Source: Deroplatys truncata (lineage: Eukaryota > Arthropoda > Insecta > Mantodea > Mantidae). From it: DNA of 64,000 nt. The notes under the pieces were generated by a model that did not search any database, was not told the origin of the DNA, and saw only the letters and a list, made by a program, of their open reading frames with translations. The position numbers and the translations under genes are program-made. This document shows, piece after piece, positions 9,801-54,091 of this stretch (the first letter of the stretch is position 1; each line of letters starts with the position of its first letter). The DNA is taken from the NCBI GenBank assembly GCA_030765065.1, contig CM060979.1, forward strand, positions 21,047,001-21,111,000, in the 5' to 3' direction.

Positions 9801-10048
9801 TCGCGACTTGGAACTCCTTACAATCGATGAAACTAAGGGTCAGAATATTGTGGTGGCTATATTTTAAGCCTGCAGCGCTGTCAATGACTTTCTCTACTAC
9901 CACGCACCTACTAGGTAGAGAAAGTCCTGCGTTACACTAAAACATTCGATATCCATATTTCACGGGAGATGCATGTTTTGTGGTCCCCTGAATAAGAAAA
10001 CGTTTTTCGAAAACTGCGTATGTAACTGTCTGTTTGTCAACAGCTTAA

Positions 10049-10879
10049 CTAAAAAAAATCTGATGTGCTACACTCACATGACTTTCTCTACTCTTGTACA
10101 AACTATTTTTACAAAGGCTTATTCTCCATATGCTTCATGTTAATCGAGATATCAATCTTATTGCTAATTTTCTTGTAGATGCAAGGGGAACATGGTAGGT
10201 TATAAGCGATAGTCAAATCTTTTAAGCGCTGGTTGCTATGTGGCGCATTCCAATCTCTTTGCATGTCCAGGACATAAACAAAATGAATAACGAATTTGAG
10301 AAAAAGTATAAGTATTGGAAAATTTAAGGGAATAACAAGCAATATCTCGAAAATGGTTCACTCAACTAAAAAAATGTATATGACATAAATTGTGTATTTT
10401 AACGCGATCTACATTTTTTGTGTAGTAACATTTTGTCTATCTCTTATGGTTTACCAGTTATGCAAAAGTCGTTCACAATAAAGAATACTTTTGGAGATAT
10501 TCCCAGGAAATTCAAGATATACATTTTATTTGTCATAAAAATATCTTAAGCATATGATATTTTAATCAAAATCGTTAGAGCCATTTTTGAGAAAATTAAA
10601 TTTTCGAAAAATGTTCCATGTAAAGGGTAATCTGTGGTGGGGGGGTTTTCTTGAAAACCCTCGTGTCGCATCTCTGGAAGATACTGAACCTAAATACCAA
10701 GTTTGGTGTTCATCCGACTGTTCGTTTCTGAGTTATGCTGTTCACACACACGGACATGTTTCTAAAAATGCTTTTTTTGGATTCAGGGAGTCTCAAAACA
10801 TATATTTCCGGTGAAATCTCGGTATCGAATTTTTGGGTGGAATACAATACTTCCCCTACTTACTATACGTAATAGAGAA
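10049..10879 (-). mobile_element. Family A copy A7, inserted in A6
   Basis: Full-length young-subfamily copy. On the plus strand it runs from TCTGATGTGCTACACTCAC to ATAGAGAAAGT, with A-runs of the interrupted A6 on both sides. It defines both element ends. The (CA)n tract (reverse of GT) is near 10743. Confidence 0.8.
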
Positions 10880-11260
10880 AGTAAAAAAGTCGGATAAATA
10901 TCAAATTTGACATTTAAATTTAATATCTTTCGAACTTGTGACACGAAGATTCAAACAAAAGGGGGGGATACACAGCATCCCCTCTCCCAATGTCCTTTGC
11001 ATGGAAAAGTTCTCGTTAATATTTTCTCAAAAATGTCTCCAACGATTTTGATTACATTAGCATATGGTAGGATATTTACATGACAAATAAAATATATGTC
11101 TAGAATTTTCTTGAAATAACCTGTGAAGTCTTCTTCATTCGGAAGGAGTTTTGTATAATTCTGTGTAAATGGTAAGCCATAAGAGATAGACAAATGGTTA
11201 CTTCATAAAAAATGTAGATCTGTATAAAAACACACAATTTATTTCAAATAACTTTTTTTT

Positions 11261-11807
11261 TTACTTTCACTACTACGCATAGTAATTCAATATCGAGATT
11301 TCATCGGAAATACATGTTTTGAGGCCCCTGAAACCAAAAAAACGCACTTTTAGAAAAAGGTCCGTGTGTGTCTGTGAACAGCATAACTCGAAAACGAAAA
11401 ATCGGATAAGTACCAAACTTGGAATTTAGGTTCAATGTCTTTCAAAGTCGCGACACGAACGTTTTCAAGAAAATCCCCCCATCCCAATTACTCTTTACAT
11501 GGAACATTTTTCGAATTTTTTTATTTTTCTCAGAAATGCCTCTAAATGATTTTGATTAAAATATCATATATTTAAGATGTTTTCATGACAAATACAATTT
11601 ATATCTTGAATTACCTGAAAATGTCCCCAAAACTCCTCTTCTTTCTTAATGGCTTTTGTTTAACTGGTAAACCGTAAGAGATAGACACAGTTCTTCTACA
11701 CAAAAAATGTAGACCTCATTAAAACACACAATAATCTATGTCATATACATTTTTTCTTACTTTCTTTCTTTTTGGTCGAGTGAACCATACCCGAGATATT
11801 CTTTTTA
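11261..11807 (+). mobile_element. Family A copy A8 (right part missing)
   Basis: Begins ACTTTCACTACTACGCATAG in a T-run of A6 and follows the family to TGAACCATACCCGAGATATTC. It is cut where A9 begins. Confidence 0.75.
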
Positions 11808-11926
11808 CTTTCTCTACTGCGTATGTAAGTAGGGGAAGTATTGTATTCCACCCAAAAATTCGATACCGAGATTTCACCGGAAATACATGTTTTGAGACTC
11901 CCTGAATAAAAAAAAAGCATTTTTGG

Positions 11927-11975
<49 letters not shown>

Positions 11976-12656
11976 CAGCATAACTCAGTAACGAACAGTC
12001 CGTTAAAACTTGGTATTTAGGTTCAGTATCTTCCAGAGATGCGACACGAAGGTTTTCAAGAAAATCCCCCACCCCAGAGTACCCTTTACATGGAACATTT
12101 TTCGAAAATTTTAATTTTCTCTAAAATGCCTCTAAATATTTTTAATTAAAATATCATATGTTTAAGGTATTTTCATGACAAATGAAATGCATATCTCGAA
12201 TTTTTTGGGAATGTCTCCAAAAGTGTTCTTCATTCTGAACGACTTTTGCATAACTGGTAAACCATAAGAGATAGACAAAATTTTACTGCACAAAAAATGT
12301 AGATCGCGTTAAAATACACAATTTATGTCATATACATTTCTTTTGTTGAGTGAACCGTTTTCGAGTTATTGCTTGTTATTCCCTTAAATTTTCCAATACT
12401 TGTCTTTTTCTCAAATTCGTTATTCATTTTTTTTGTCCTGGACATGCAAAGAGAATGAAATGCGCCACATAGCAACCAGCGTTAAAAGATTTGACTATCG
12501 CTTAAAGCCTAGCAATTCCCCTTGCATCTACAAGAAAATTAGCAATAAGAGTCTGCAAATGTTTATCTCGATTAACATGAAGTAGATGGATAATAAGCGT
12601 TTGTAAAAATACTTTGTAAAAGCGTAGAGAAATTCATGTGAGTGTAACATATCAGA
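11808..12656 (+). mobile_element. Family A copy A9, full length
   Basis: Young-subfamily copy, from ACTTTCTCTACTGCGTATG to AGAGAAATTCATGTGAGTG and ATCAGA. It carries a (GT)n expansion of about 43 bases at 11931-11973. It abuts A8 head-to-tail. Confidence 0.8.
11931..11973 (+). repeat. (GT)n microsatellite inside A9
   Basis: Uninterrupted GT run of about 21 units at the family A GT site. Confidence 0.95.
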
Positions 12657-12925
12657 AATTGTTTTTGGCATCAGAGATATCTGTAGTTATTGTTTTGAAT
12701 GTTTCAATACCTTTGTCATTTCTTTAAGTGCTGTCAATCTTTAGTTATTTCTCGCGACGTCTTTGAAAGATTATGGAATTTCAAGGTCAGCATATAGCGA
12801 CCCGCTTTTAAACAACAGACACTCCACCTCGTAGGTACCTAAACGAAATGGTTAATGAAACTATTGCTGCAAAGGATTTGTAGAAGCTATATAAAACAAA
12901 CGATAGTGGGTGGAAAACGACATAT

Positions 12926-13550
12926 GGATGTAACAATGCACATTTTTAAAAACAATTTTGTTGTTGAAGTAGCTGCATATGATAAAATGTATGTGAAATA
13001 ACTTGACCTTTGCTCCAAAACAAAGCAGCAATATTATAGGTACGTTACGATTTAACTGTTTCGTCTGGCGCGTTAAAGTCACGTTCTGTAAACACTGTAG
13101 CCCAAATGTCCTCGCCAAAGTAAAATGTGAAAGAAAACAAGCAAGCAGGTTTAGGCATCAAACACGTGTTATGGTTGCGCTGTGGAGGGCCACCAGTACA
13201 TTGCTACATTGTGCAACGCCCTGAAATGCAGGAGCTGATGCTAATGAAGGGCAGAGTCTCGCTTCTCGAATCCATTTCTTTTAGACCTTGTTGCTGTGTC
13301 ATTTGTTAAATTATTTAGCCTTTAAAGCTTGCGCCAAACACTGTTGCCATATGTAATGGAAAACGTCCAGTATCTTTAATCTCAGATGGAACTGTAGACC
13401 AGAGAGCTGCCGAAATGTTCAGGCACCTAACACTTTTATTTGTCTACTCTTAGTATTGTGTGTTAGAAGCTTAGGATTAAAACCTATCAAATCTTTAAAA
13501 GCGTTGTGATCCCCAAGCTGCGGAATGTGCTGTATACGCACGATGTCTGG
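12926..13550. other. spacer, nothing recognised
   Basis: Overlapping 60-85-residue frames on both strands show no family resemblance. No repeats were seen. Confidence 0.4.
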
Positions 13551-14243
13551 AGCAATTTCCTTATGCGGGTAGGTACCCAGTCCCCGTCATACCTCCAGTA
13601 ATTTCCTTATGCGGGTAGGTACCCAGCTCCCGTCATCGCTCCAGCAATTTCCTTATGCGGGTAAGTACCCAGCTCCCGTCATCGCTCCAGCAATTTCCTT
13701 ATGCGGGTAGGTACCCAGTTCCCGTCATCACTCCAGCAATTTCCTTATGCGGGTAGGTACCCAGTTCCCGTCATCACTCCAGCAATTTCCTTATGCGGGT
13801 AGGTACCCAGTTCCCGTCATCGCTCCGGCAATTTCCTTATGCGGGTAGGTACCCAGTTCCCGTCATCGCTCCAGCAATTTCCTTATGCGGGTAGGTACCC
13901 AGGTCCCGTCATCGCTCTAGCAATTTCCTTATGCGAGTAGGTACCCAGTTTCCGTCATCGCTCCAGCAATTTCCTTACGCCAGTAGGTACCCAGTTCCCG
14001 TCATCGCTCCAGTAATGTCCTTACGCCAGTAGGTACCCAGTTTTCGTCATTCCTCCAGCAATTTCCTTACGCCAGTAGGTACCCAGTTCCCGTCATTCCT
14101 CCAGCAATTTCCTTACGCCAGTAGGTACCCAGTTCCCGTCATCCCTCCAGCAATTTCCTTACGCCAGTAGGTACCCAGTTCCCGTCATTCCTCCAGCAAT
14201 TTCCTTACGCCAGTAGGTACCCAGTTTTCGTCATCCCTCCACG
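13551..14243 (+). repeat. 46-bp minisatellite, about 15 units
   Basis: The unit reads AGCAATTTCCTTATGCGGGT followed by AGGTACCCAGTTCCCGTCAT and CGCTCC. The first nine units carry TTATGCGGGT (or TTATGCGAGT); the last six carry TTACGCCAGT. Units differ mainly at the position between CCCAG and CGTCAT. Not coding. Confidence 0.95.
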
Positions 14244-14339
14244 TGATGCTGCTATGTGCTTAGCGGAGTGATAGATTAAGGTTTTTTTTACTTCTACTTT
14301 GAACTTAGAGTGAAACAAACGAACGAAGTAGCGCCGCGG

Positions 14340-14545
14340 TAACGTGTGCCACTCGATTCGGCCACCGCCCACTCTGACCCGTGGGTTTTTCGTGGTTTGC
14401 CCGGGTCGCTAGACAAATGCTGGGTTGGTTCATCTTCTGCCACGACTTTCCTGTCCCTCATTTCCTGTATCCATCATCTTCCTTGTTATCTGGGTTGTAG
14501 GACCGTCGACGGTGTTCGGCGGGTTGTGACTGGGCGGTGGCTGTG
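14340..14545 (+). mobile_element. S5-related retroposon fragment (copy c)
   Basis: GCCACCGCCCACTCTGACCC, GTGGGTTTTTCGTGGTTTG and CCACGACTTTCCTG match S5 and the block at 2406 in the same order. Truncated; GC-rich flank continues to the mariner. Confidence 0.5.
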
Positions 14546-14617
14546 CGCGGGTCGTTGCGGGTCTGCTAAGTTATGTCTCGCCTCCGAGTGGGGCCCCACG
14601 CATAGTACATGGTGTTA

Positions 14618-15881
14618 CGAAGGCGATACTGGAAATGTTTGGAACGGTATGTTTCTAAAAAGAAATGGATTTTTTTTATTTGACAGCTATTTTCTAATGT
14701 TTTGCGAGTTGATTGCCGTGTACTTTGTTTGATTTGCTGTAATAGTTTGTTAATTATCATCATCTAAAAGTTTTGTGTTCACCCAAAAATGAATTTGGCT
14801 CGAGAACATTTTCGGGCTATGAGTTACTTACGATCACAAACAGTCATTAACGCTTAAACATTGTGAAGATCGGCTTTGGAATGCATCTGGTGAAGAAGCC
14901 CCATCTAAGGTAACAATTTATAATTGGTACAGCGAATTCAAAAGAGATTAGTTTTTTTCTTAGCAATGATTTTCGTGAAGAACTGCTATTACTGATAGTA
15001 TTGCCGCTGTTCAAGCAATGCTTGAAGATCGACAGACATCTATGAATTTATTCGGGCGACATTGGACATTGATATGAGTCAAATCCAAAACATTTTATAT
15101 CAACAGTTAGACGTGGCAAAACTTTGTTGTCGATGAATCTCACATAAACTGGCTCACGATCAAAAATAGGGCATTGATTGGTGCAGAAAATCTCTGGAAA
15201 CATTCCAAGGCGGTACTTCAAATTTGATTTGGAATATGGTTACTGGTGACGAATCTTCGATTTATTGTTATGATCCTGAAAAGAAAAGTCAATCGGCTCG
15301 GTGGGTCTTTCGAACAGAACCTAAGCCTAAAAACTCCGACGGATTCGCAATGCTGGCAAAAAGATGGTTACTAATTGTTATTTTTTAAACGGGCCATATT
15401 GCGACTGTAGCATTAGAAGATAGACTGCCAATTGGTACACGAATGTATGATTACAACAAATTTTTAAAGAAGCTCGAGAAAAACGCTCAAAAGGACAAAT
15501 GTTTCATCATAACTAGCATCGTCGCATACTAAAACTAACAACTGAGTATTTGGAGGCCCAAAAGTCTGCATCATAGACGCTTCACCAAACAGCCCTGACC
15601 TAGCACCTTATGATTTCTCTTTGTTTCCAGACATTAAAGCTAAAATGCGTGGAATCACTTTTTCATTGCAAATGAAGCAGTGGAACATTATAAAAACCTG
15701 TTAAAAAATTTGTTTCTGAAGTGCCTCAGAAAGAGTGGCATCATTGCTTTAAGGACTGGTTTCATCGAATGCAAAGTTCTATGATGGTAATGGGGAATAT
15801 TTTGAAAAACAATAAAATCACTTAGATATTTTTAAGACTAATCCTCGTTTGATTGTCTAGACATTTTCAGTGTGGCCCTCG
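14618..15881 (+). mobile_element. Mariner copy MarA, 1.26 kb
   Basis: TA dinucleotides at 14616-14617 and 15882-15883 flank imperfect TIRs: CGAAGGCGATACTGGAAATG on the left and CGAGGGCCACACTGAAAATG on the right when read inward. Length is typical of mariner. It belongs to the same family as MarB at 18806; flanking UTRs also match between the copies. Confidence 0.8.
14789..15815 (+). pseudogene. Mariner transposase remnant (MarA)
   Basis: The start context AAAAATGAATTTGGC matches MarB. Recognisable pieces follow in order: an HTH-region stretch with EEAPSKVTIYNWYSEFKR; then GTACTTCAAATTTGATTTGG with TGDESSIYCYDPEKK, the first catalytic Asp; then RWVFRTEPKPK; then a C-terminal KDWFHRMQS and EYFEKQ-type end. 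The frame shifts within about 20 codons of the start, and the second catalytic region (HHDN in relatives) is destroyed. It would have cut and pasted the element at TA sites; it cannot now make protein. It is more decayed than MarB. Confidence 0.75.
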
Positions 15882-15883
15882 TA

Positions 15884-16240
15884 GATATAAATAAGTTAAA
15901 CACACAAAAAAGAAGCACGTAGCAGAAACAGTAAAAAGGCAGGTGGTGTATCATAAAGCCTTGAAGTGTTGTGGTCCCAATGTTACGTATACGGCAGGAA
16001 TTTGTTATGCTGCTCACAGCTGTTACTAGACCACACGATTGATCAGAACGGGCGTTTCTTAGAGCGGGTATTCCCCGAAACGCCACAGTTAAGTACTTGT
16101 ATAGGTTATTCCCCTCGGAACACAAGGTTAAGACTGTATCCAACCCCTCTCGGGGAAGGCTAAATTAATGTCGTTCTTGCGTCCGAAAATAGGCACTTTC
16201 AAGGATAGTCGACAATTTGTTTACCTTTTGCGCTATTTAT
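15884..16240. other. spacer, nothing recognised
   Basis: Nothing repeated or protein-like seen between MarA and the next family A copy. Confidence 0.4.
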
Positions 16241-17076
16241 TACTTTCTCTACGTCTCTACTACGTAGAGAAAGTAGGGGAAGTATGCATTCCACCCAAAA
16301 ATTCGATACCGAGATTTCACCGGAAATACATGTTTTGAGACCCCTTGAATCCAAAAAAAGCATTTCTGGAAACATGTCGGTGTGTGTGTCTGTGAACAGC
16401 ATAACTCAGAAACGAACAGTCGGATAAACACCAAACTTGGTATTTAGGTTCAGAATCTTCCAGAGATGCGACACGAAGGTTTTCAAGAAAATCCCCCACC
16501 CCAGATTACCCTTTACATGGAACATTTTTCAAAAATTTTAATTTTCTCAAAAATGGCTAACGATTTTGATTAAAATATCATATGTTTAAGATATTTTCAT
16601 GACAAATGAAATGTATATCTCGAATTTTCTGGGAATGTCTTCAAAAGTATTCTTCATTGTGAACGACTTTTGCATAACTGGTAAACCATAAGAGATAGAC
16701 AAAATTTTACTATACAAAAAATGTAAATCGCGTTAAAATACACAATTTATGTCCTATACATTTTTTTGTTGAGTGAACCATTTTCGAGATATTGCTTGTT
16801 ATTCCCTTAAATTTCCCAATACCTATACTTTTTCTCAAATTCGTTATTCATTTTTTTGTCCTGGACATGCAAACAGAATGGAATGCGCCACATAGCAGCC
16901 AGCGCTTAAAACATTTGACTATCGCTTTAAACCTACCAATTCCCCTTGCATCTACAAGAAAATTAGCAATAAGATTAACATCTCGATTAACATGAAGCAT
17001 ATGGAGAATAAGTGTTTCTAAAACTAGTTTGTACAAGAGTAGAGAAAGTCATGTGAGTGTAACACATCAGAAATTT
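16241..17076 (+). mobile_element. Family A copy A10, full length
   Basis: Complete young-type copy. Its left palindrome is unusual: CTCTACGTCTCTACTACGTA precedes GAGAAAGT, a short local duplication. It ends AGAGAAAGTCATGTGAGTG and ACACATCAGA before a T-run. Confidence 0.85.
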
Positions 17077-17094
17077 TTTTGCTTTCTTCGCCCA

Positions 17095-17360
17095 TCAATC
17101 TATATACGATCGAAAGGTTGAATATCGGGTTTTCACCAGTAAATGATGTTTGAAATCTCCCGAGTCAAAAAGGATTCTTATAGAAAAGCGTATCAGCACA
17201 CAGTTTATGCATGTGCATTAATAGTAGAATCCAACAATGAAAAATATATTAAATGACAAATTTGCTATTTAAGATAGTATCTTCCATACATGCAGGACGA
17301 AGAATTTCCATGGCAAAATCTTGAAGTTTTTTTCTAAAATGTCGGTTTTAGGTTTATATT
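17095..17360 (+). mobile_element. Family A piece A11, strongly diverged
   Basis: AATATCGGGTTTTCACCAGT, TGAAATCTCCCGAGTC and a later ATAGTATCTTCCATACATGC keep family order, but with many changes. One of the oldest copies in the window. Confidence 0.5.
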
Positions 17361-17375
17361 TTTGCAGATTTTTAC

Positions 17376-18095
17376 TATCTCTTCCACGTACCTAGTAGGT
17401 AAAGGAAGTACTGCATTCCATCCAAAAATTCGATACAGAGATGTGACTGGAAGCACATGTTTTGAGGCCCCTGAAGCAAAAAAATATAATTTTTAGAAAA
17501 AGTTCCGTGTGTGTTGTGCGCGCGCGCGAACAACATAACTCGAAAACGAAATGTCGGATAAATATCAAACTTGGTGTTTAGGTTCAGTGTCTTCCAAAGA
17601 TGCGACACGAAGACTTTAAAGAAAATCCCCCCACCCCAAACTACCCTTTACATGGAAACATTTTTTCGTTATTTTTTTTATTAAAATAGCATAATTTTAA
17701 GCTATTTTCATTGTAAATAAAATGTACATCTTAAATTTTCTGTGAATAGTCTGTGAAGTCCTTTATTCTAAATGGCTTTTGTGTAATTAGTAAAACGTAA
17801 GAGATAAACAAAACCTCACTACAGAATTTATGTCAAGTAAAATTTGTTGTGACTTTTACCATATCCGATATATTCTTTGTTATGGTTTGAATTTGCAAAT
17901 ACTTACACTTTTTTCAAGCATTAAGTCGCTACTCGTTTTTTCTGGTCACCAAAAGTGTATTTCAAAAGCCATCACATCACGATCGACTTTTTAAATACCT
18001 GGCTCTCACTTTAGCCTACTGTATCCTTATGCTCGTACCTACAATGAAATTTGTAAATACAATTTTTCTCAACAAGAAGTGAAAGCCTTTAATAT
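17376..18095 (+). mobile_element. Family A copy A12, old type
   Basis: Left palindrome CTCTTCCACGTACCTAGTAG is well kept. At the GT site there is a CG run (GTGCGCGCGCGCG, 17517). The body continues to about 18095 with the right tip missing. Confidence 0.75.
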
Positions 18096-18805
18096 TAAAA
18101 CTGCTATGTCAGCTGATCCGAGCATATAACGAAAATGTGAATAAGGTCAGTATTGCTGCCTTGTTTTTCATCAGAAAGCAAACGGATATAAACATTTCTC
18201 CACATGAAGATTAGGTACACGTGAAAACAGCTAATTACTGACTTGGGAATATTACTCATGTGCTGAAACAAGCAATTTTAATCTGTGGTTCTTGCCCGTT
18301 ACAGAGGTATGATACGTTTGATCAATATTCCTATCTGTTCCCAGTAGCTTACGTATGTTTATTTGTATATGTGTAATACAGGAAAGCTCATATTGCTACT
18401 TTTCCCAGGAAACACAGTCAAGTGTTTTCTCCATGTGCTGTGATTCCCCGTATTCCAAAGCAAGATGACATTTAATAGCGTGGTTAATGGAGACGAGCCC
18501 AGGGATTCCTGGCCTACTATCTGCAATTTTCTCATTGGGAGCTAGTTGAGTGGGGAGCAGGGGGGCACATAATCTATGTCAAGGTGGAATGACAATCTCG
18601 CGTATGACCCCAATTTTTGCTTCCAACTGGAGATCGACTGGAGTCGAGCCAAGTGGTCAGGCCGGATGACATCACCTGCCTCACGGCTAGAGTGCGTTAT
18701 GGAAAACACTGCTGAAAAATCCATTCATATGACCCAAGCTTTTTTCCTCAAGATTTTCGCTGATCCCCTAAATTAACTTGCCATTCTATTAGAGAAAAAA
18801 AAATA
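18096..18805. other. spacer, nothing recognised
   Basis: No shared repeat recognised. Frames on both strands at 18542-18776 overlap and show no domain. Confidence 0.4.
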
Positions 18806-20091
18806 CGTGAGCGATACTGAAAGTTTTTAGAATGCTATGTTTTTAAAAACAAATGAAATTGCTTTATATTTGACAGCTACTTTCTAATGTTTTGCGAGTT
18901 GATTGCTGTGTAGTTTGTTCGATTTTCTCTAATATTTTGTTAATTATCATCATTTAAAAATTCTGTGTTCATCCAAAAATGAATTTGACTACAGAACATT
19001 TCCAGCTATGATTTTTTACGATTTTAAATCGCCACTAACGCCTAGACAATGTGAAGATCGGCTTAGAAATTCATTTGGCGAAGAAGCCCCATCTAGGACA
19101 ACGATTTATAATTGGTACAGCAAATTCAAAAGAGGTCGGTTAATTCTTAGTGATGAACTTCGTGAAGGACACCCAAGAAGGGCTGATATTGAAGAAAATA
19201 TTCCGCTGCTCGAGCAATCCTTGAAGAAGTTCGACGGACATTTGTTCGGGCAACATTGGGCATTGGTATGAGTCAAATCCAAAATATTTGACATCAGTAG
19301 TTAGACTTGAAAAAACTTTGTTGTCGATGGATTCCACATAAACTGGCTCCTGATCAAAAACAACCACCATGTATTGGTATAGAAAAACTCTGGAAACATT
19401 CCAATGCGGCACTTCAAATTTGGTTTGGAATATCGTTACTGCTGATGAATCTTGGATTTATTATTATGATCCTGATAAGAAAAGTCAATCGGCTCAATGG
19501 GTCTTTCGAACAGAATTTAAGCCTACAAAAGTCCGACGGATTCTCAATGCTGGTAAGGAGATGGTCACTAGTTGCTTTTTTTTCCTTCTAAAACGGGCCA
19601 TATTGCGACTATAGCATTAGAAGATAGACGTACTGTTACTGCCGATTGCTACACAAATGTCTGTTTACAGCAAAATTTTGAAACATTTCATGAAAAACGC
19701 CCAAAAAGAAAAATAACGTTACATCATGAAGACGCATCGTCGCATGAAGCAAAACTGAAAACTGTGTATCTGGATGACCTAAAGGTCATCACCATGGACT
19801 CTCCACCATACAGTTCTGACCTAGCGCCTTATGATTTCTTCTTGTTTCCAAAGGTAAAGATAAAATGCGGGGAATTACTTTTTCGCCATTAGATGAAGCA
19901 GTGGGAACATTATAAAAAGCTGGCTTGTGAAGTGCATCAGGAAGAGCGACATCATTGCTTTAAGACTGGTTTCATCGAATGCAAAAGGGTATTTATGTTA
20001 AAGGAGAATATTTTGAAAAACAATAACATCATTTAAACTTTTTAAAACTAATCCTTGTTGGATTTTCTAAGAAATTTCAGTGTTGCCTGGT
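18806..20091 (+). mobile_element. Mariner copy MarB, 1.29 kb
   Basis: Flanked by TA (18804-18805 and about 20092-20093). The inward TIR reads CGTGAGCGATACTGAAAG on the left and about CCAGGCAACACTGAAAT on the right. Same family and orientation as MarA, 4.2 kb away, but better preserved. Confidence 0.8.
18979..20026 (+). pseudogene. Mariner transposase remnant (MarB)
   Basis: The ATG at 18979 opens MNLTTEHF, then the frame shifts into FYDFKSPLTPRQCEDRLRN (N-terminal HTH region) and EEAPSRTTIYNWYSKFKRG. After a broken linker come CCRWIPHKL, then TADESWIYYYDPDKKSQSAQ with the first catalytic Asp, then TGHIATIALEDRRTVTAD. The second catalytic site reads HHEDASSH where relatives have HHDNAS, so the Asp is displaced to Glu. 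The third, LAPYDFFLFPK, keeps its Asp. It ends EYFEKQ-like at 20026. The total length is not a multiple of three and several frames are needed, so it is dead. Confidence 0.8.
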
Positions 20092-20184
20092 TAGTTAGGT
20101 AATTTATATTAAAACATAATTTATTTTTGCGGCAGCTAGAGGAACATGGGAGGTAGTATTGATTCAGTTCAGAGGTAGCGATCG

Positions 20185-20778
20185 TATTGTATTCCACCCA
20201 AAAAATTCGATATAGAGATTTCAACGGAAATACATATTTTGAGGCCCTTTGAATACAAAAAAAGATTAGAAAAAGGTCCCTGCATTTGTGTGTGTCTGTG
20301 AACAGCATAACTCCAAAGCGAAAATAAATACCAAACTTGGTATTTAAGTTCAGTATCTTCCGAAGATGCGACACGAAGATATTCAGGAAAATTCCCCCAC
20401 TGCAACTATCCTTTACATGAAACATTTTTCGAAATTTTTATATTCTCAAAAATGTCTCCGATTTTTCTTAAAATAACATACATCAAAGATACTTGCAATA
20501 TGAATAAAAGGTATATATTTCATTTTCTGGGAATAACCTCTGAACTCGTCTTCATTCAGAAGGAATTTTGCATTATCTTGTATAACCGGTAAACGTTAAA
20601 GATAGACGAAAACGTATATGTAGATCTTTTTTTAAAAAAAATACAATTTATTTGAAATTTTGTGGAATGAGCTATTACCAAGATATCCGTTATTAATGGT
20701 TTAAATTGTTCAATTCTTTTAAAGTCCTTTCGACATTCAGTTTGCATCGAATATTTTATCTTATAGTAGTCACTGGAA
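20185..20778 (+). mobile_element. Family A copy A13
   Basis: Family sequence starts at GTATTGTATTCCACCC without the left palindrome and runs to about 20778 (ATTGTTCAATTC..., TGTCGA-type region). It follows MarB after about 95 bases. Confidence 0.7.
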
Positions 20779-22375
20779 GTGCTCGACAGTTTTGTTTTCC
20801 TGATGTGCATATACCTCAAAATAGTAATTGGTGGAATAACTCTGAATTTCAATACTGTTTCATTTTTCCTGTATAAAATGCAGCATATATTTTACAAACT
20901 TTGTAGCGGTTCCTCCTTTGTAGGACCCTACTGCGTTGATGATGATGGATGCTGTATTACGCACCTGTAGGTCGTTTTGATGCCCGTACTCTTGTGTTGT
21001 ACCTCGGCGATCTCGTAGACTGGAATCTGATGATCGCATATCTGTATGTTTCTGTGTGTTAGAATGTTGTAGTTATTATTTTATAATTCTGCCACGGCTG
21101 CTGTATTGGTGTAGGAGAGCAGTTGTGTCTTGCCAGGGTTGGGTATGGAGAAGGTTAAAATATTTTGCACTGACGTATTCTGTTAATTATTACACTTGTA
21201 TTTTACATAAACCACATATGATATTCACAATTCAGTATCGCCTTTGTCATGCTAAAATATGTATAACTGGTAGACTTTAAATACGTAGTTTTAGCGTTTA
21301 TTTTGAGACTTGCTTATACACGGCCTTCCTGCTCGAACACTGACAAGCTTCTGTTAGCGTTCCCTTCAACCGTTTTCTTAACGTACGTATTTGAATTATA
21401 GGCACGTATTACTGCAGCTGTTTGGTGCTACTATCCAATAACAGTTTGTTACACGCACACACACACACACACACACACACTCATTGTCTTAATTATGAAT
21501 CCAAATTTCGTTACATGGTTACGTAGATACTACTGCATTTCTCCTAATTTTATATTACTGGTTATATAGCTAACAATGGCCTTTCCCCCTCATTATATAT
21601 TTTATATATTATAACGTTATATACTTGTTCTCTACCATGTGTACATTATGAATATATGTGTTTTAACACCCTCTTTAATTATTATATTACAATATTAGCA
21701 AAGAAAATACATAACACGTAAAACTTAGAACAAAATATTAAAGAAAGAAATTATGAATGTGTTGATGCTGAGAAGCTGTGAATTAGATATCTTATTATAT
21801 TAATGAGTTATTGTATTAGTTTGTCCGTGGCTAGTACTGTATGTTGCTCAAATTGAACCTTTAACTGACCAAAGAAAATTAAGAAACAACAGCCTCCTTA
21901 GAATGTCCCAAAACCTAACGGAATGAAAATCCTTAAGCGGAGATAATGCCTGCCGGCGCAAGCGAAGAGACCATTTAATATATGAATTTTCATGGAAGAA
22001 CATTAAGGGATCACAAATATTTTCCAGGAAATTGTGCTTGTGGTACACCTCTGCTTTTAATCCCTATGAACTTTCTATTCTCGGTCCACTTGAAGAAGGA
22101 ATAAATTGGGGGTATTCATAATGGTACGTATTCAGCGGCAAACGTATTTGAGAGTAGTTCTGAGGAATACTTCAGTGCTGCTTAATGAAGTTCTGGCAAA
22201 TGAAACTACATAACATGTGAAAACTCTGTCAAAATGATTACAACCTTTTTGTGAACCAGAACGCTCAAAATTCGTTATAGCCAGATCCTCAGAGAGCAAG
22301 GAAGGATTAAAAGGCCTCAGTTTGTACTCTTTAGTGACCGTCTTTCAATTCCAGTGACAAAGCCTTATTATTATA
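20779..22375. other. 1.6-kb AT-rich region, no gene recognised
   Basis: Longest stretch of the first third with no recognised repeat apart from an (AC)n tract at 21455. Frames up to 74 residues lack domains. Could be single-copy DNA. Confidence 0.4.
21455..21481 (+). repeat. (AC)n microsatellite
   Basis: About 13 AC units, not within a family A copy. Confidence 0.9.
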
Positions 22376-22443
22376 GAGCTCACTGCGCATCTAAGCAGTG
22401 GCGGTTGTAGAGCTCACTGTGCACATAAGCAGTGGCGGTTGCT
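22376..22443 (+). repeat. Short tandem duplication, 2 x about 34 bp
   Basis: TAGAGCTCACTGCGCATCTA followed by AGCAGTGGCGGTTG is repeated at once with two or three changes. Confidence 0.8.
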
Positions 22444-22685
22444 CTGTAGGAGCACGTGAATACCTCAACTTTTGACACTTTGCAAATATATTTATTTTTC
22501 TTTTCTTTGAATGCTATTACACGTAACGTATGCGTGGTAATTTAAAATCTACGACGTTTAAATCTACCGCGCTACTCCTCTAAACTCGATGAAATGTGGC
22601 AATAGGGTCGGTAGCACTTCTTAACTTGTTTTAAGGAGCTTTTGGGCATGCGCAACTGGAATGACGTAATTCCTTATGGGTCAAA
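22444..22685. other. spacer
   Basis: Nothing recognised. Confidence 0.4.
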
Positions 22686-22687
22686 TA

Positions 22688-22924
22688 CAGGTGAGCCAAA
22701 AAACTACGAACCGGCTGCGCGGTGTTTTTCCTGTCCGTGTTCTCGGCGCTCGTTGCCGTCTGCCGCTATCATAGAAAGGCTCGGATGAAACCATACAACA
22801 TTTTTAAAACTACTTTTAAAGGCTTTACTTACCAACTTTATGAAAGGAGATGCTGAAACTGGCCACCGTCGTTGTCCATACATTTTTGGCACCTTTTTAG
22901 GAAACTATCCATCACTACCCATGA
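22688..22924 (-). mobile_element. Fragment of mariner-type element E
   Basis: It starts after a TA with CAGGTGAGCC and ACTACGAACCGGCTGCGCGG, the TIR of the element at 40190. On the minus strand it includes the last transposase codons (the CCAAAAATGTATGGACAACG region). It stops abruptly at 22924 next to family A sequence, so one half is missing. Confidence 0.75.
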
Positions 22925-22929
22925 TCCGG

Positions 22930-23342
22930 TGGTCAATGTCTTATGGTTTAGCAGTTATACGAGATTATCCAAAATTCTTTCAAACAGACTTCAGAGATTA
23001 TGTGCAGCATATTCAGTAGTTAACTTTTATTAGTCATGCGAATATCATCTTATATACATGCGGTATTTTAGTCAAGTACGTTACAGCATTTTTAAGTAAA
23101 TAAAAATAAAGACAAAATCCTCATAAAGAGTCAGGGTTGTGGGATTATCCTGAAAAATCTTTGTGTCGCGTCTTTGGAAGATACCGAGTTTGGTACTTCA
23201 AAAACACACACTTGGATCTTTTTCTAATTTTCTTATATTCAGGAAGCCCCAAAAGGCGTATTTCCGGTGAAATCTCGATAACGAATTTTTGGGTGGAATG
23301 CAACGATTCCTCTACTTTCTGCGGTACAGAAAGTAGAAAGGC
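22930..23342 (-). mobile_element. Family A copy A14
   Basis: It begins TCTTATGGTTTAGCAGTTAT and ends at the family's left end (GAATTTTTGGGTGGAATGCA, TCCTCTACTTTCTG). The right part is absent at the junction with the E fragment, which suggests a deletion spanning that boundary. Confidence 0.7.
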
Positions 23343-23888
23343 TTGTTCAGGGGCATCTTAATGTGCTCTCTGAATGGATTTCGATAACTGGGCAGTATGT
23401 GGGCGGGGCTGGACCTGATTCTGACTATTTATAGTGCAAGAGGTCTGGGTCAATGCTTCCCTCAGTCGATATTCACCGCAGTCTATTTCCAGTGCCCCTT
23501 TACACGAAACATCAATCATTAAATCACCATGCAAGCACCCTGAGGAGAAGAGCCTGCTTAATGGCCACTCTGCAAGCCCAACACAGGAAGTGGAAAATGC
23601 TTCTGCTTCCACGCTGATTTATCATTTCAAAATAGCGTTTTCAGAGACTGCACACAAATAAATTCACACCCTTTATTTTTAGCCTTGCCCTCGGCGCATA
23701 AAGCAAACCTTACAGTATGTACTGCATTGCTCCAGGTGCATAATGTCCACTTAGTCGTGACGTTTCAAAGCGTGGGCGAACCTGGCGGTCGCCTCGGGCA
23801 TTATGGGGCCTTCAGATGAGGAGACTAATGCTTAAGTAATAACAGTTATTAAAAGTGACCGCTAAGCACCAGTAGTGATGCTATTTTT
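23343..23888. other. spacer, nothing recognised
   Basis: Mirror-strand frames at 23358-23661 have no domain. No repeats seen. Confidence 0.4.
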
Positions 23889-25046
23889 ACTTATTCTACT
23901 ATGTACTTAACACGAAGTTGGGGAAGTATTGTATTCCACAAAAAATGTCGATGTCGAGATTTCATGGAAATACATATTTTGAGACCCTCTAGATCCAATA
24001 AAAAGCCTTTTTTTTTTGGAAAAGGTTCGTGTGCTTGTTTGTCTGTCTCTGTACTATTTGTGTGTGTCTGTGAACAGTGAAATTAAAAAAAAATAAGAAG
24101 TACCCGATAAATACCAAACTTGGTATTTAAGTTCTGTATATCTTCCAAAGATGCAACACGAAGACTTTCAAGGAAATCCCCCAGCCAAAACTACCCTTTA
24201 CATGGGAAATGTTTCGTTATTTTTTCTCAAAATGACTCAAGATTTTGATTAAAATACCTATATTAAGATATTTGCATGACAAATATTGAATTTTCTAGGA
24301 ATAGGCTGTGAAGTCCTCTTCATTCTGAATGAAATTTGTCTAATTGGTAAAGTGTATGAGAGAGACAAAATCTTATCGCACAAGGCATGTAGATCAGGGC
24401 GCCAGGATAGCGCAGTGGTTTGATCATGTGAAGTAATCCCAAGGTCCAATGTGGATCGGAATCCACGGTAAAAGCAGTAGGTCCTTTAATTCCACCGCCT
24501 CCTCGTCATCACCCTACCGTAGTGGGTAACAGGTTTCGCCCGCTGGGTGCCTCCACCTCAGAAATGGGTCCAGTTCATCACTTGGTGGAATGAGGTATCC
24601 CCCGAAGGTCATGGGCTATATTGGGAGCGTTAGAAACGACGACGACAAATGTAATCTCATTAAAACACATAACTTATGCCAAATTTAAGTTTTTGTGGCG
24701 TTAACCATTTCAGAGATATTTTTTGTTGTGGGTTTCAATGTTGAAATACATATACTTTTCTCAAAAGGAAAATCGATATTTCAGTTTTTTCCCGTGACCA
24801 CGCAAAGAGAACGAAATTTCAAGGCCATCACATAGCGACCCGTTCTTTAAAACATTTGACTATCACTTACGCCTGTTTTATTTCCCTAATCCCCTTCTAC
24901 CTACAAACAAATATGCAATAAAACCATTACTGCGAATCTTTATTTCGATTAACATGAAGCAGATAGAAGAATAGCTTTTGTAGTAATGCTTTGTTGAAGT
25001 ATGGATAGAGAAAGTCATGTGAATGTAAAACATCAGATAATTTTTT
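23889..25046 (+). mobile_element. Family A copy A15, split by SINE S6a
   Basis: Left and right ends are both present (GGGGAAGTATTGTATTCC; TAGAGAAAGTCATGTGAATG). The SINE at 24396-24648 interrupts it at the AAAATGTAGATC site. Old subfamily (GTGAATG right end). Confidence 0.8.
24396..24648 (+). mobile_element. SINE S6, copy a, inside A15
   Basis: The head GCCAGGATAGCGCAGTGG resembles a tRNA A-box region. The body contains GGGTGCCTCCACCTCAG and CCCCGAAGGTCATGGGC, and it ends in a (GAC)n run. ATGTAGATC (24387-24395) and ATGTAATC (24649-24656) look like a slightly decayed target duplication. A minus-strand partner lies at 49170-49285. Confidence 0.65.
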
Positions 25047-25195
25047 TTTGTATTAATAGCAATTTTGCCGTAGGCTAATATAATTCTTGAGTCTTCTTGA
25101 TTCTTAGCTTTACATAAACTTTTAGAGGCTTTTTAGGAATAAGAACTACAAACTGGCAATATAACTTATTTTCCTAGAACTTCGGTAAAACAGCT

Positions 25196-25862
25196 GTAGA
25201 GAAAGTCTTTCTCTATCCTCTACAGCTTGAGATGAACATTCAAATGTTTAAAAACTGGTCGCTATACACTGGCCTTAAAATTACATACTCTGAAGGTTCG
25301 CAGTACTTCAACAACTGAAATGACAAAACACTGAAAAATTGAAGCCAATAACAACTGATATCTCGGAAATGGCTGATGCCACAAAAAAGTGAAATGAATT
25401 GTGTGCTTTAAAGAGATCTGCATTTTTTAAATAAATGTTTGTCTCTTACGGTTTTACCAGTTATACAACATTATACATTTTATTTGCCATGAAAGTACCT
25501 TAAATAGAGATGTTTTAAACAAAATGATTAGAGCTATTTTTGAGAATATAAAAGCAATTCGAAAAATTTTCCATGTAAAGTGTAGTTTGGTGTGTGGGGG
25601 GGGGGCGATCTTCATGAAAATCATGGTGTGGCAACTTAAAAAAATATTGAACTTAAATACGAAGTTTGATGTTTATCCTACATTTCGTTTTTTATTTATG
25701 CTATTCAGACACACTCACATATGTGTACACGTTTTTGTATAGGGGACATCAATGCATGTACTTCTGTTAAAATCTCGACATCATTTTTTTTTTTTTTTTT
25801 TTTTTGCTGAAATGCAGTATCTACTTGCTCTGCTTACTAGGTACATGGTAGAAAAGGTAAAA
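25196..25862 (-). mobile_element. Family A copy A16, old type
   Basis: It runs from TCTTTCTCTATCCTCTACAG through the minus-strand family order to TAGGTACATGGTAGAAAAGG at the left end. It carries a G-run near 25599 and a T-run of about 24 at 25782. Confidence 0.65.
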
Positions 25863-26091
25863 ATCGTTGTAGGGATACGAAATGTCCAATAAACGAAGTT
25901 TGTGCGCAAAAAAGAGCACACAATATAGATCATCACATTGGTCCAGTTGCAGACTGATAAGATATGCGCGTTTTAGGATTGTATACGTGTATAATTCCAA
26001 AGTAGAAAATCTGGGAAAACATTTGGCCTAAGCGAAAGATATTTGCTAATGAAGATTAGAAAAAAAGCAAAACTTTGAATCACTACAAATA

Positions 26092-26795
26092 ATAGTATAT
26101 TATGCAATGGTAATAATTACGTCTTAATTACTATTACACTCAGGTTGCACAGGACTGTTTTGGTCGACCGCACTATAATTTCCAAACTTTGAGTTTTTGG
26201 ACAAAACGATCTTACTTTGTTAATTGTGTGTAATTAAATGCTGATCTGATGGCAGGACCTTGAGCGTGTTTGCGAGTAGTGCAACAGATGCAGCACTGTT
26301 GAGTCCACGCAATATTTATTGATTTTTTGCAGGTAACGTGAAAGCGACACACACTGAAGCAAAGGAACTGAACTCAATTTAGTAAAATATTAAAATTACA
26401 ATGAGCAGAATTTATTTTATTTTAAATACACACATTTCGTTGTTTATCTGGGAATGTTATATGTTTAGATTTTCCTCACTCCATGAACTGCACACAGTAT
26501 TTTTCATGCTGCTTCCTTGATTTTTGCGGCAATAAATTGTTGTAAACATTCAAAGCCTGTGCCTCAGTTTCCGGCGGTGTTAGATTTTGTAAATCAGTGT
26601 CGCTTTCAAAACTCGCGCCTGCCATTTCTGCCAACTTGGACTGCTGCTTTGAAGGTGTTAAAATGTATGGGAGAGCTGCGCGCGCGCCGAGTAACATCAT
26701 CATGATTCGCTCAAGTATAATGGATACCATAACAGTTGACTTGCGTCACATGTTATCAGCGTATTATAGTGAGGTCAACCAAAATCGTTGTTTAA
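26092..26795. mobile_element. TIR element Y (XYZ family), longest copy
   Basis: Inverted motifs GGTCGACCGCACTATAAT (about 26161) and ATTATAGTGAGGTCAACC (about 26764) match those of X, and the preceding module TATATTATGCAA is shared. The interior holds about 200 bases absent from X, including a tyrosine-recombinase-like fragment. Non-autonomous. Confidence 0.6.
26420..26730 (-). pseudogene. Tyrosine-recombinase-like N-terminal fragment in Y
   Basis: The minus strand encodes SKQQSKLAEM, then ETEAQALNVYNNLLPQKSRK, then CVQFME, a stop in place of an expected Trp, and GKSKHITF. The pattern N-LLP-KS-(x)n-F-EW-K resembles the start of the SAM-like domain of Crypton-type or DUF3504-type tyrosine recombinases in insects. 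Only about 60 residues remain; no catalytic R-H-R-Y part is present. Family assignment is by memory of the motif and could be wrong. Confidence 0.4.
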
Positions 26796-26837
26796 GATCA
26801 ATAAAACTGGAACGTCTTCAAATATTTTGAACTTTAT

Positions 26838-26839
26838 CA

Positions 26840-26873
<34 letters not shown>

Positions 26874-26874
26874 T
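26838..26874 (+). repeat. (ATT)n microsatellite
   Basis: About 12 ATT units. Confidence 0.95.
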
Positions 26875-26989
26875 TAACATTGATGAAGTGAATGGTATCT
26901 AACGCAGATTTTCTTTGTTTCAGGTGAGTGACCAAAATACTGTAATATCCATACCAAAAGTAAGTTGAATTTATTTTAAAGATATTAGA

Positions 26990-27190
26990 GTGAATACCTG
27001 TCGTCCTCTGGTCCCCGAGGTCGAGAGTTCAAACCCAACGGAGGGGGATAGCTTTTTAAGCGTAAAAATGCTTTGGAAGGTAAGTAAAGCCTTTGGTCGC
27101 ATGTAATGCTTATTTACACGTAGAAGAACCTCATACCTTGAAAGAGAATATCATTTCACGCCTGAAGCGTCCTGCTTCTCTCTCGTGGTG
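26990..27190 (+). mobile_element. SINE S1, copy b
   Basis: GTCCTCTGGTCCCCGAGGTC with a B-box GAGAGTTCAAACCC, then the S1 body (AAGCGTAAAAATGC, GGTAAGTAAAGCC, CACGTAGAAGAACCTCA). Diverged and ending near TTTCACGCC. Confidence 0.6.
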
Positions 27191-27754
27191 CTATCTATAG
27201 TCGGTGAGATAATTACCTGTTACCATGCGCGTCTATTGGCGGAATCAGTGACTGCAGGTTGTCACCTGATTACAGAAAGTACCGCAAGAAAACTTAAGTT
27301 AAATAACAATACTAACTAGTCAAGAAATGTTATGTTTATAAGCTCCGTATGTAAAATTTCTTAGAAAAGTCAAAGCGAGACATTTTTTGACTCATTACGC
27401 TACGTTTTGGGGAAAGTAACTCAGACGTTATATAGCCTGTTTTTTAAATGAGGTGGAATGTATGTTACACTTTAACTTTGGTAGCAATGGGTCCAGCCAT
27501 TTTGAGCAAAAAGGGTACCATAAACACGCACATATAAATATAAAAAGTTTAAAAATGCAAGTTTTAGTTTCAGAGTGGATCATTATCTTACTTATGGTAA
27601 ATTGAAAACTACTAGCAAACTTTTGGTTACAATTTTTATTGTAAATTATCTAAGAGTGGTACGTGTTTAATTTATTAAAATTAGAGTACAAAAAGTTACA
27701 AATTAATTTATATATGGATATAACGGCTAGATACAAGCAGGAAAAGTAGATATA
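27191..27754. other. AT-rich spacer, nothing recognised
   Basis: No repeats or protein-like frames seen. Confidence 0.4.
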
Positions 27755-28588
27755 AAAATCTCCCAACAATTCCATGTCGAGATTTCACCGGAAATGCATC
27801 TTTTTAAGCCCCCTTGAGTAAAAAAAAATACTTTTTAGAGAGCTCGTGTGTGTGTTGTCTGCCTGTCTGTGAACAGCATGACTCAAAAACGAAAAGTCGG
27901 ATAAATACCAAACTTGGTATTTAGGTTGAATTCCTTCCAAAGACGCGACACGAGGATTTTCAAGAAAATCTCCCACCCCAGACTGCCCTTTACTTCGACA
28001 TTTTTCGAATTTTTTTTATTTTCTATAATATGCCTAACGATTTTGATTAAAATACCATATATTAAAGGTATTTACATGACAAATAAATATGTATCTTGAA
28101 TTTTCTGGGTATAGCCTGTGAAGTCCTCTTCACTAGGAAGAAATTTTGTATAATCTTGTATAACTGTAAGCGTTAAGCGATAGACGAAAATTCACTAAAC
28201 AAAACATGTAGTCCTCTTTAAAACACACAATTTATTTCAAATAAATTTTTTGTAGCAGCAGCCATTTCCGAAATATCTGTTTATTCATGGTTCGAATTGT
28301 TCAATACTTAGCCATTCTTTTCAAGCCCTGTCGATTTTCAGTTGTTTCTCGCGATGTCATGGAAAGAGCTTAGAATTTTAAGGCCAAAACATAGCGTTCA
28401 GTTCTTAAACATTTGACTGTCGCTGTTCCCTTTGTATCTAAAAGATATGTGTAATGTAGCTATTTCTGCAAAGGTTTGTTTGGATTAAAATGAAGTAGAT
28501 AGAAAAGAAAAATAAGCTTTAATAAAAATGGATTGTATACTCACTAAGAAACGACAGTGTAGAAGGTCATGTGAATGTATCACATCAT
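27755..28588 (+). mobile_element. Family A copy A17, old type
   Basis: From a degraded left end (GATATAAAAATCTCCCAACA) through ATTTCACCGGAAATGCATC to GTCATGTGAATGTATCACAT and CATAT. A18 starts in the following T-run. Confidence 0.75.
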
Positions 28589-28751
28589 ATTTTTACTTTC
28601 TCTACTACGTATAGTAAGTAGGGGAAGTATTGCATTCCACCCAAAAATTCGATACCGAGATTTCACCGGAAATACACGTTTTGAGACCTCCTGAATCCAA
28701 AAAAAGCATTTTTGGAAACATGTCTGTGTGTGTGTGTGTCTGTGTGTGTGT

Positions 28752-28804
<53 letters not shown>

Positions 28805-29505
28805 TGTGTGTCTGTGAACAGCATAACTCAAAAACGAACAATCGGATAAGCACCAAACTTGGTATTTAGGTTTAGTATCTTCCAGAGATGCGACACGAAG
28901 GTTTTCAAGAAAATCCCCCCACCCCAGACTACCCTTTACATGGAAGATTTTTCGAAAATTTTAATTTTCTCGAAAATGGCTCTAACGATTTTGATGAAAA
29001 TATCATATGTTTAGGGTAATGTCATGACAAATGAAATGTATATCTCGAATTTTCTGGGAATGTCTCCAAAAGTATTCTTCATTGTGAACGACTTTTGCAT
29101 AACTGGTAAACCATAAGAGATAGACAAAATTTTACTACACAAAAAATGTAGATCGCGTTAAAATACACAATTTATGTCATATACATTTTTTTGTTGAGTG
29201 AACCATTTGCGAGATATTGCTTGTTATTTCCTTAAATTTTCCAATACTTATACTTTTTCTCAAATTCGTTATTCATTTTTTTTATGTCCTGGACATGCAA
29301 AGAGAATGGAATGCGCCACATAGCAACCAGCATTAAAATATTTGACTATCGCTTAAAAGCTACCATATTTCCCTTGCATCTACAAGAAAATTACCAATAA
29401 GATTGATATCTCGATATCTCGATTAACATGAAGCATATGGAGAATAGGCGTTTGTAAAATTAGGTTGTACAAGAGTAGAGAAAGTTATGTGAGTGTAACA
29501 CATCA
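28589..29505 (+). mobile_element. Family A copy A18, full length, young
   Basis: ACTTTCTCTACTACGTATAG to AGAGAAAGTTATGTGAGTG and ACACATCAGA, followed by a T-run. It is longer than average because of a GT tract of about 95 bases. A GATATCTC duplication sits near 29407. Confidence 0.85.
28721..28817 (+). repeat. Expanded (GT)n with CT interruptions, in A18
   Basis: A long GT run broken by a few TCT steps, at the same family A position as in A9, A10 and A20. Frames reading THTHTH across it are artefacts. Confidence 0.95.
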
Positions 29506-29690
29506 GATTTTTTTTGTCGTCATGCAAAGAGGATGGAATTTCAAACTCATACTATATAGTACATGGAAATGAGTTGAAAGTTTACCTGTATTGACAGAAA
29601 GTAGCTACAATAATAAGGTTTTTCAAGAATAGTTTTTATAAGTTGAGAATGTCATGTGAAGGCAAAACACCAGGTATTTTTTCCCAAGAA
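29506..29690 (+). mobile_element. Family A piece A19 (right part)
   Basis: TCGTCATGCAAAGAGGATGG, then AGTTGAGAATGTCATGTG and AAAACACCAGG correspond to the family's right quarter, strongly diverged. Confidence 0.5.
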
Positions 29691-29753
29691 CGGCGAGTAA
29701 AGGAAGCACAAAATTACTCCTAGCTTTCAATTGAATTTTTAATGTTTTAAGTT

Positions 29754-30612
29754 ATTACTTTCTCTACTACGTATAGTAAGTAGGGGAAGTATTGTATTCC
29801 ACCCAAAAATTCGATACCGAGATTTCACCGGAAATACATGTTTTGAGACCCCTGAATGCAAAAAAAGAGAATTTTTGAAAACATGTCCGTGTGTGTGTGT
29901 ATGTGTGTGTGTATGTGTGTGTCTGTGAACAGCATAACTCAGAAACGTACAGTCGCATAAACACCAAACTTGGTATTTAGGTTCAGTATCTTCCAGAGAT
30001 GCGACATGAAGGTTTTCAAGAAAATCCCCCCACCCTTGATTACCCTTTACATGGAACATTTTTCGAAAATTTTAATTTTCTCAAAAATGGCTCTAACGAT
30101 TTTGATTAAAATATCATATGTTTAAGATATTTTCATGACGAATAAAATGTATATCTTGAATTTTCTGGGAATGTCTCCAAAAGTATTCTTCATTGTGAAC
30201 GACTTTTGTATAACTGGTAAACCATAAGATATAGATAAAATTTTACTACACAAAAAATATAGATCGCGTTAAAATACACAATTTATGTCATATACATTTT
30301 TTTTGTTGAGTGAACCATTTTCGAGATATTGCTTGTTATTCCCTTAAATTGTCCAATACTTTTTCTCAAATTGGACTTCGTTATTCATTTTTTTATGTCC
30401 TGGACATACAAAGAGAATGGAATGCGCCATATAGCAACCAGCTCTTAAAATATTTGTATCGCTTATAACCTACTATTCCCCTTGCACCTTCAAGAAAATT
30501 AGCAATAAGATTAACATCTCGATTAACATGAAGCATATGGAGAATAAGCGTTTGTAAAAATAGTTTGTACAAGAGTAGAGAAAGTCATGTGAGTGTAACA
30601 CATCAGATTTTT
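29754..30612 (+). mobile_element. Family A copy A20, full length, young
   Basis: ACTTTCTCTACTACGTATAG to GAGAAAGTCATGTGAGTG and ACACATCAGA. Very close to A18 over its length. GT tract at 29889-29926 with AT interruptions. Confidence 0.85.
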
Positions 30613-41665: not shown

Positions 41666-41763
41666 CAGTAAAAATGAAAACGGATGCTAAACTCTGTCAT
41701 CTGTCCACAGATAATGAAGTGGCTAGACTGGATGGCACGCTAATGCCATCTGCCCGCCGCTTG

Positions 41764-53684: not shown

Positions 53685-53822
53685 CGCGCCCATTTGTTAT
53701 TCTATAAACATTTGTTATTCTACCCATTAACTATAAGTCAGACAAATACCAAGTTTGATATTTTAAGTCAGGGTTGCAATATTTGTTTTTAGTTTTTCAA
53801 AAAGTGGTTGAAACGATTTAAG

Positions 53823-54075: not shown

Positions 54076-54091
54076 TAAACTACCTTTTTAC

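Follow-up and report, generated by a model that had tools for sequence, protein, structure and literature searches.

A 64,000-nucleotide stretch of the genome of Deroplatys truncata (assembly GCA_030765065.1, contig CM060979.1, positions 21,047,001 to 21,111,000; hereafter the window) carries many copies of a non-coding repeat, which we call family A. We find that family A is very probably a non-autonomous Helentron, that is, a Helentron-associated interspersed element (HINE) of the DINE-1 (Drosophila interspersed element 1) kind, moved by the Rep-helicase of an autonomous Helentron that has nearly the same 3' end in the same genome. The repeat had been described, and the Helentron/HINE reading proposed, in a first-pass annotation of the window; the repeat is confirmed, and the reading is supported by a Rep-helicase unit with a near-identical 3' end. 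Searches covered the source genome of 4.29 Gb in 818 contigs, of which C1, C9, C13 and C14 are mentioned here. Sampled loci are designated by L-numbers; most were selected through exact end motifs close to the C1 start, which biases the sample to well-kept family A copies. Reversed motifs served as controls for the counts of the two exact ends.

Family A is about 850 bp long, with a range of 744-990 and a median of 856 over 55 aligned copies (in this alignment a single L063 row is an outlier, and two L062 rows share one end). At its left end the element has TTTTT-ACTTTCTCTAC-TACGTATAGTAA-GTAGGGGAAGT, where ACTTTCTCTAC folds back on GTAGGGGAAGT. This 5' inverted repeat, which goes beyond the features listed in the first-pass annotation, has a fold z of -3.93, and none of 200 shuffles was as good. 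The right end reads GTAGAGAAAGT-C-ATGTG-AGTGTAA-CACAT-CAGA and is followed by a T-run. The body contains a (GT)n microsatellite and, about 635 bases in, a run of seven Ts (T7). No stop-free stretch of the consensus exceeds 105 codons, and two open reading frames (ORFs) overlapping family A copies gave no Pfam match at E 0.01, which agrees with the earlier statement that the repeat is without coding sequence.

The first-pass annotation was also right that classical terminal inverted repeats are absent, the 3' repeat lying 22 bases inside the end, and that the window holds a subterminal inverted repeat, an internal (GT)n tract and head-to-tail copies. As to the hairpin that it placed before the terminal CAGA, the ATGTG..CACAT letters are there, but the stem is just 5 bp long and by energy alone is not significant (z -0.66). 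Its starting point for the family, 9891, did not hold: the exact left repeat sits at 9887-9897, in a diverged relative (75% over 107 bases) and not in a full family A copy. With at most one mismatch, ACTTTCTCTAC occurs 27 times in the window versus 1.46 expected, a number reached in none of 100 shuffles, and the consensus covers 19.1% of the window at E 1e-8. Six copies have both ends in the window, and many fragments of relatives lie between them (Table 1).

A genome-wide count gives 118,432 exact 33-base 3' ends (59,084 + 59,348) and 131,038 exact 30-base 5' ends (65,403 + 65,635), with no match to either reversed control; these counts are floors because decayed copies are uncounted. The 11 bases of GTAGAGAAAGT alone are found 668,437 times versus 4,701 for the reversed control, although the 11-base repeat is present more than once per element and also in related families. 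Among copies selected by their ends, the median divergence from the consensus is 3.7% substitutions. An intact-looking autonomous Helentron is now linked to a repeat that a 4.3-Gb genome holds in over 100,000 well-preserved copies, and the many near-identical copies of this repeat are material for studying Helentron end recognition and target choice.

The evidence for the partner comes from genome matches to the Rep domain (PF14214), of which there are at least 152, and to the PIF1 helicase, with at least 150; these are lower bounds, 150 of 291 PF14214 candidates and 150 of 289 PIF1 candidates having been scored. At 18 loci Rep and PIF1 lie in frames of equal reported length, 2,108-2,543 aa, that is, in one open frame. 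We compared two such Helentrons, on C9 and C13, at equal offsets behind the helicase. Their letters are identical at the 1.6-kb offset; the 2.4-kb samples share AGATTTTTTT and diverge after it, and the two are unlike at 3.2, 4.0 and 4.8 kb. The last 110 bases of the C9 unit finish in GTAGAGAAAGTTATGTGAATGTAACACATC, completed by AGA and T7. The end of the C9 mobile unit, GTAGAGAAAGTTATGTGAATGTAACACATCAGA-T7, agrees with the family A end at 31 of 33 bases and at 11 of 11 in the subterminal repeat, whereas the best match to the 33-base end in 20 shuffled 64-kb sequences was 24/33. The ATGTG..CACAT palindrome is common to family A and the partner. A subterminal repeat of at least 11 identical bases is thus shared with a Rep-helicase element, as read at the 3' side.

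This end is a regular feature of the Rep-helicase loci. A 47-base probe of it has 62 genome matches at up to two mismatches, and its control has none. These were paired with 62 + 20 PF14214 matches, including all those with frames of at least 1,000 aa among the matches listed, and with 61 PIF1 matches; among the matches compared, for 52 of the 62 Helentron ends a Rep or PIF1 match lies no more than 15 kb upstream in the same orientation. Conversely, the end is present for 28 of the 30 listed Rep matches with frames of at least 1,000 aa and for all 18 listed with frames of at least 2,100 aa. In these 18 it lies 5,007-5,035 bases from the Rep start, and in 16 of them the distance is 5,029-5,035 bases. 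The first-pass annotation, which saw no Rep-helicase partner in the window, had pointed to the genome as the place to find an element ending like family A, and it is there that the element was found. A separate, higher-scoring group of PF14214 matches, mostly broken and canonical Helitron-like (for example, C1:38116489-38117034), was also observed; none of the 20 top-scoring Rep matches has a family A-type end.

Several points weigh against tying family A to this partner. Ten of the 62 Helentron ends have no Rep or PIF1 match among those compared, and two of the 30 long Rep matches have no end. Of the 3' ends, the one in C9 was read completely and the one in C13 partly, the other copies being recognized by the 47-base probe, and the partner is matched by its 3' end: upstream of Rep, C9 and C13 are still alike at 3.8 kb save for a 2-base shift, from which the partner unit would be at least 8.8 kb long. 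Over the last 60 bases an ungapped match of the Helentron to family A gives 38/60, so that by the published 80% rule the Helentron that we read is another subfamily and not the direct parent of family A. The same rule allows such a difference within one family, and the Rep-helicase Helentron could be a relative that supplies protein to family A. A genome search with PF16900, an oligonucleotide-binding (OB) fold of the replication protein A (RPA) type, gave two neighbouring matches on C14 and none near the Helentrons, although a diverged RPA could escape it. By the mechanism that we envisage, an HUH-type Rep would recognize the fold-back at the 5' end and, at the 3' end, the subterminal repeat with its small hairpin, and would nick at the ends; the helicase would peel off one strand, and a T-run would take up this single strand with no paired staggered cut of the kind that DDE transposases make.

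Insertion was followed at empty sites, with 57 full-length elements as queries (some dropped for short flanks) and the fetched DNA as targets. Twelve queries gave a candidate, three of which were trivial matches to neighbouring element ends (the window copy at 28595, L016 and L026). At four of the remaining nine the identity was 96-99%, and every one of the four shows, when filled, exactly five Ts left of the element and, right of it, as many Ts as the target has. The L073 site (93%) is ambiguous, the empty T-run continuing with G and T, and the L098 site (90.5%) shows a gain of eight rather than five; those found with L094, L024 and L020 as queries (81-84%) were set aside as too diverged. In the sample the left T-run is exactly five in 43 of 70 cases, six in 8 and two in 9, with the array L009 counted once. 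Among the 131,038 exact 5' ends, 103,007 are preceded by at least five Ts and 25,618 by at least six. Genome-wide, 10,091 left borders read TTATT versus 737 that read TATTT (13.7-fold), and TTATT opens the right border in none of the five full copies of the sample that have it on the left.

The TTATT borders, taken with the genome counts, suggest that the left Ts belong to the element. The data are better read as five left Ts (in some copies TTATT) that the element brings with it and that are set at the 5' edge of the target's T-run. Two points count against this. The T numbers of the L025 and L027 empty sites are those of the most similar minisatellite unit, many other units having a broken T-run at that place, and the constant gain of five could also be written as a duplication of TTTTT. 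Consistent target-site duplication is what the first-pass annotation had named as speaking against a Helentron; the gain of five Ts is indeed constant at the four sites, and we favor element-borne Ts over duplicated ones. Its claim of insertion inside T-runs stands in that the T-runs are real; at the four best empty sites, however, the insertion is at the 5' edge of the run and not anywhere inside it.

A reading of TTTTT as a 5-bp target-site duplication would make family A a miniature inverted-repeat transposable element (MITE) of a DDE transposase, with the 11-base repeats as degenerate terminal repeats. Inverted repeats at both ends and the gain of five Ts at all four near-identical empty sites would suit such an element, but the right repeat, 22 bases inside the end, makes the ends asymmetrical, and in all 18 long-frame loci a Rep-helicase unit has this type of 3' end. 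The right borders of the five sampled TTATT copies also speak against a duplication, and the excess of TTATT over TATTT is unlike the random decay of a duplicated T5. We consider a DDE origin highly improbable and rejected it on the partner, the end asymmetry and the TTATT borders, no dedicated search for a DDE partner having been made.

The shared 3' end might also have another source, if an element like family A merely happens to lie on the 3' side of the Helentron, whose true end would be elsewhere. The partner was read at the 3' end, and family A is very common in the genome, both of which leave room for such a passenger. However, C9 and C13 are unlike directly past the T-run and at three further offsets, the end keeps its narrow range of distances from the Rep start in all 18 long-frame copies, and ahead of the final 33 bases the sequence is no longer that of family A. 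We give this explanation only a slight chance and retain the reading of family A as a non-autonomous Helentron moved by a Rep-helicase relative.

Because it carries its own T7 run, family A is itself a target. The run has been hit repeatedly: of 72 5' ends in the sample, 6 lie in it with a 5' module ahead of them. L098 is nested at the T7 run and L062 at another T5 of a host family A copy, each with host sequence on both sides, while other composites retain only the front half or only the back half of the host. At L059, three additional 3' modules, of different subfamilies, come after a full family A copy, giving four 3' ends in series, and L090 contains a lone 3' module flanked by T-runs. Such composites with several 3' ends could result from nested insertion and subsequent loss by recombination between the repeated halves, the loss step being conjectural. 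We tentatively suggest that passengers bring their own 5'-TTTTT (variant TTATT), enter exactly at the 5' edge of a T-run while having a T-run of this kind in their own body, and that self-nesting gives rise to modular multi-3'-end elements, maybe copied onward as units; we see this chain of events as possible, short of probable. If true, self-nesting would be a route to new Helentron subfamilies and arrays.

The multi-3'-end and head-to-tail forms may instead be one-event products of rolling-circle read-through or tandem copying, with no nesting and loss, an account that we also regard as somewhat doubtful. It would readily explain the four successive 3' ends of L059, the lone module of L090, and the finding that a 3' module follows 13 of 81 sampled 3' ends versus the 6 of 72 5' ends preceded by a 5' module. 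The fraction of 13/81 is biased upward since L059-L064, 6 of the 40 loci of one sampled set, were chosen for closely spaced 3' ends; the junction filter missed L010 and L021, where a 3' module was seen by eye. Against read-through, L062 and L098 are nested insertions flanked by the host on either side, and for L072 there is a paralogue without the insertion, L093, at 98.6%; moreover, the successive modules of L059 come from different subfamilies, and two full copies of the L026 cluster are 11% apart.

Three further observations concern the sampled loci. L060 and L073 are family A insertions with the same flanks, inserted at the same point of a host repeat; the bodies are 4.4% apart, and L060 carries an additional 3' module. 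A second subfamily (L010, L060, L061, L071, L095) is set apart by its segment at about 640-770 (GTCTTGGATATGC...), and some of its members contain a small inverted piece. L009, near the contig start at C1:20-119 kb, is a 3,409-bp tandem array with one family A copy per sampled unit, two neighbouring units being 98.9% identical.

Table 1. Positions of family A copies and their parts in the window, with the four best empty sites and the C9 Helentron
Feature	Position or locus	Strand	Remarks
Full-length family A copy	10059..10882	-	reverse-strand numbering 53119-53942; 93% to consensus
Full-length family A copy	11807..12656	+	both ends; consensus alignment
Full-length family A copy	16242..17071	+	5' end a perfect inverted repeat, ACTTTCTCTACGT...ACGTAGAGAAAGT, fold z -6.29
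Full-length family A copy	28595..29507	+	directly behind 3' end of older relative
Tandem Repeats Finder array in (GT)n region of the 28595 copy	28721-28816
Full-length family A copy, reference	29757..30607	+
Left border TTATT, reference copy	29752..29756	+	common variant of the TTTTT border
5' subterminal repeat ACTTTCTCTAC, reference copy	29757..29767	+
5' inverted-repeat partner GTAGGGGAAGT, reference copy	29780..29790	+
Internal (GT)n microsatellite, reference copy	29889..29926	+	borders approximate
3' subterminal repeat GTAGAGAAAGT, reference copy	30575..30585	+
3' stem-loop ATGTG-AGTGTAA-CACAT, reference copy	30587..30603	+	then terminal CAGA
T-run on 3' side of reference copy	30608..30614	+
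Older family A-like copy with both ends	54090..54928	+	80% to consensus
Diverged family A relative	27762..28588	+	stops just short of the 28595 copy
Diverged superfamily fragment	17374..17826	+
Diverged superfamily fragment	20184..20720	+
Diverged relative	23915..25045	+	two aligned pieces
Empty site, 49-bp minisatellite	L025		target T6
Empty site, 92-bp minisatellite	L027		target T7
Empty site inside another family A copy	L072		empty counterpart L093; target T7
Empty site inside another family A copy	L062		empty counterpart L094; target T5
C9 Helentron	C9		Rep 66068003-66068578; PIF1 66069968-66070636; 2,324-aa frame

Elsewhere in the window there are two tandem arrays, one of 15 copies of a 46-bp unit with 94% matches (13551-14241) and one that is richer in G+C, with nested 49/97/437-bp periods and about 61 copies of the 49-bp unit (41763-44722). 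Remains of mariner-type transposases are found at 60844-61836 (-), with Transposase_1/DDE_3 and a weak helix-turn-helix (HTH) match in two adjoining frames, and at 18933-19271 (+), where there is a separate Mos1-type HTH. An open frame of 158 aa at 56365-56841 (+) has no Pfam match.

Family A is a new, very abundant member of the DINE-1/HINE type, notable for its numbers, its intact-looking partner and the accounting of its Ts; a literature search with its two 11-base ends returned no apparent paper on such a repeat among its results. Canonical Helitrons end by the TC...CTRR rule. The Helentron described here resembles them in having Rep (PF14214) and a PIF1 helicase; in contrast, family A lacks TC...CTRR ends, and the 20 top-scoring Rep loci, presumed canonical-like, lack its type of end.

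By the features given for it in the excerpted text of PMC4067079, the Drosophila DINE-1/INE-1 is alike in being non-coding, in its subterminal inverted repeats, 3' stem-loop and microsatellite, in a short inverted repeat whose 5' arm lies inside the 5' subterminal repeat, in TT or T-rich targets and in having a Helentron partner. In family A the repeats have 11 bases instead of 13, and this one genome holds exact ends in numbers above 100,000. In the mite Metaseiulus, HINE-Mo and Helentron-Mo, as excerpted from the same paper, share subterminal repeats that are near the 5' end and deeper at the 3' end, a 3' palindrome, flanking Ts and a Rep-helicase partner; their 3' repeat lies 38-60 bases from the end, versus 22 in family A, and the Metaseiulus Helentron has an RPA ORF, unlike the Helentrons here as judged by PF16900. 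The non-autonomous Helentron elements of oyster (excerpts of PMC7492417) are likewise passengers tied to tandem repeats, but there the elements are described as carrying satellite-like repeats, whereas family A sits inside a 3.4-kb tandem unit at C1:20-119 kb. Finally, the excerpted text of Thomas et al. 2014 (PMC4067079), where HINEs received their name, describes no target-site modification and leaves open the side to which the flanking Ts belong; here, four empty sites and the genome counts place five of them on the left, a testable answer to that question.

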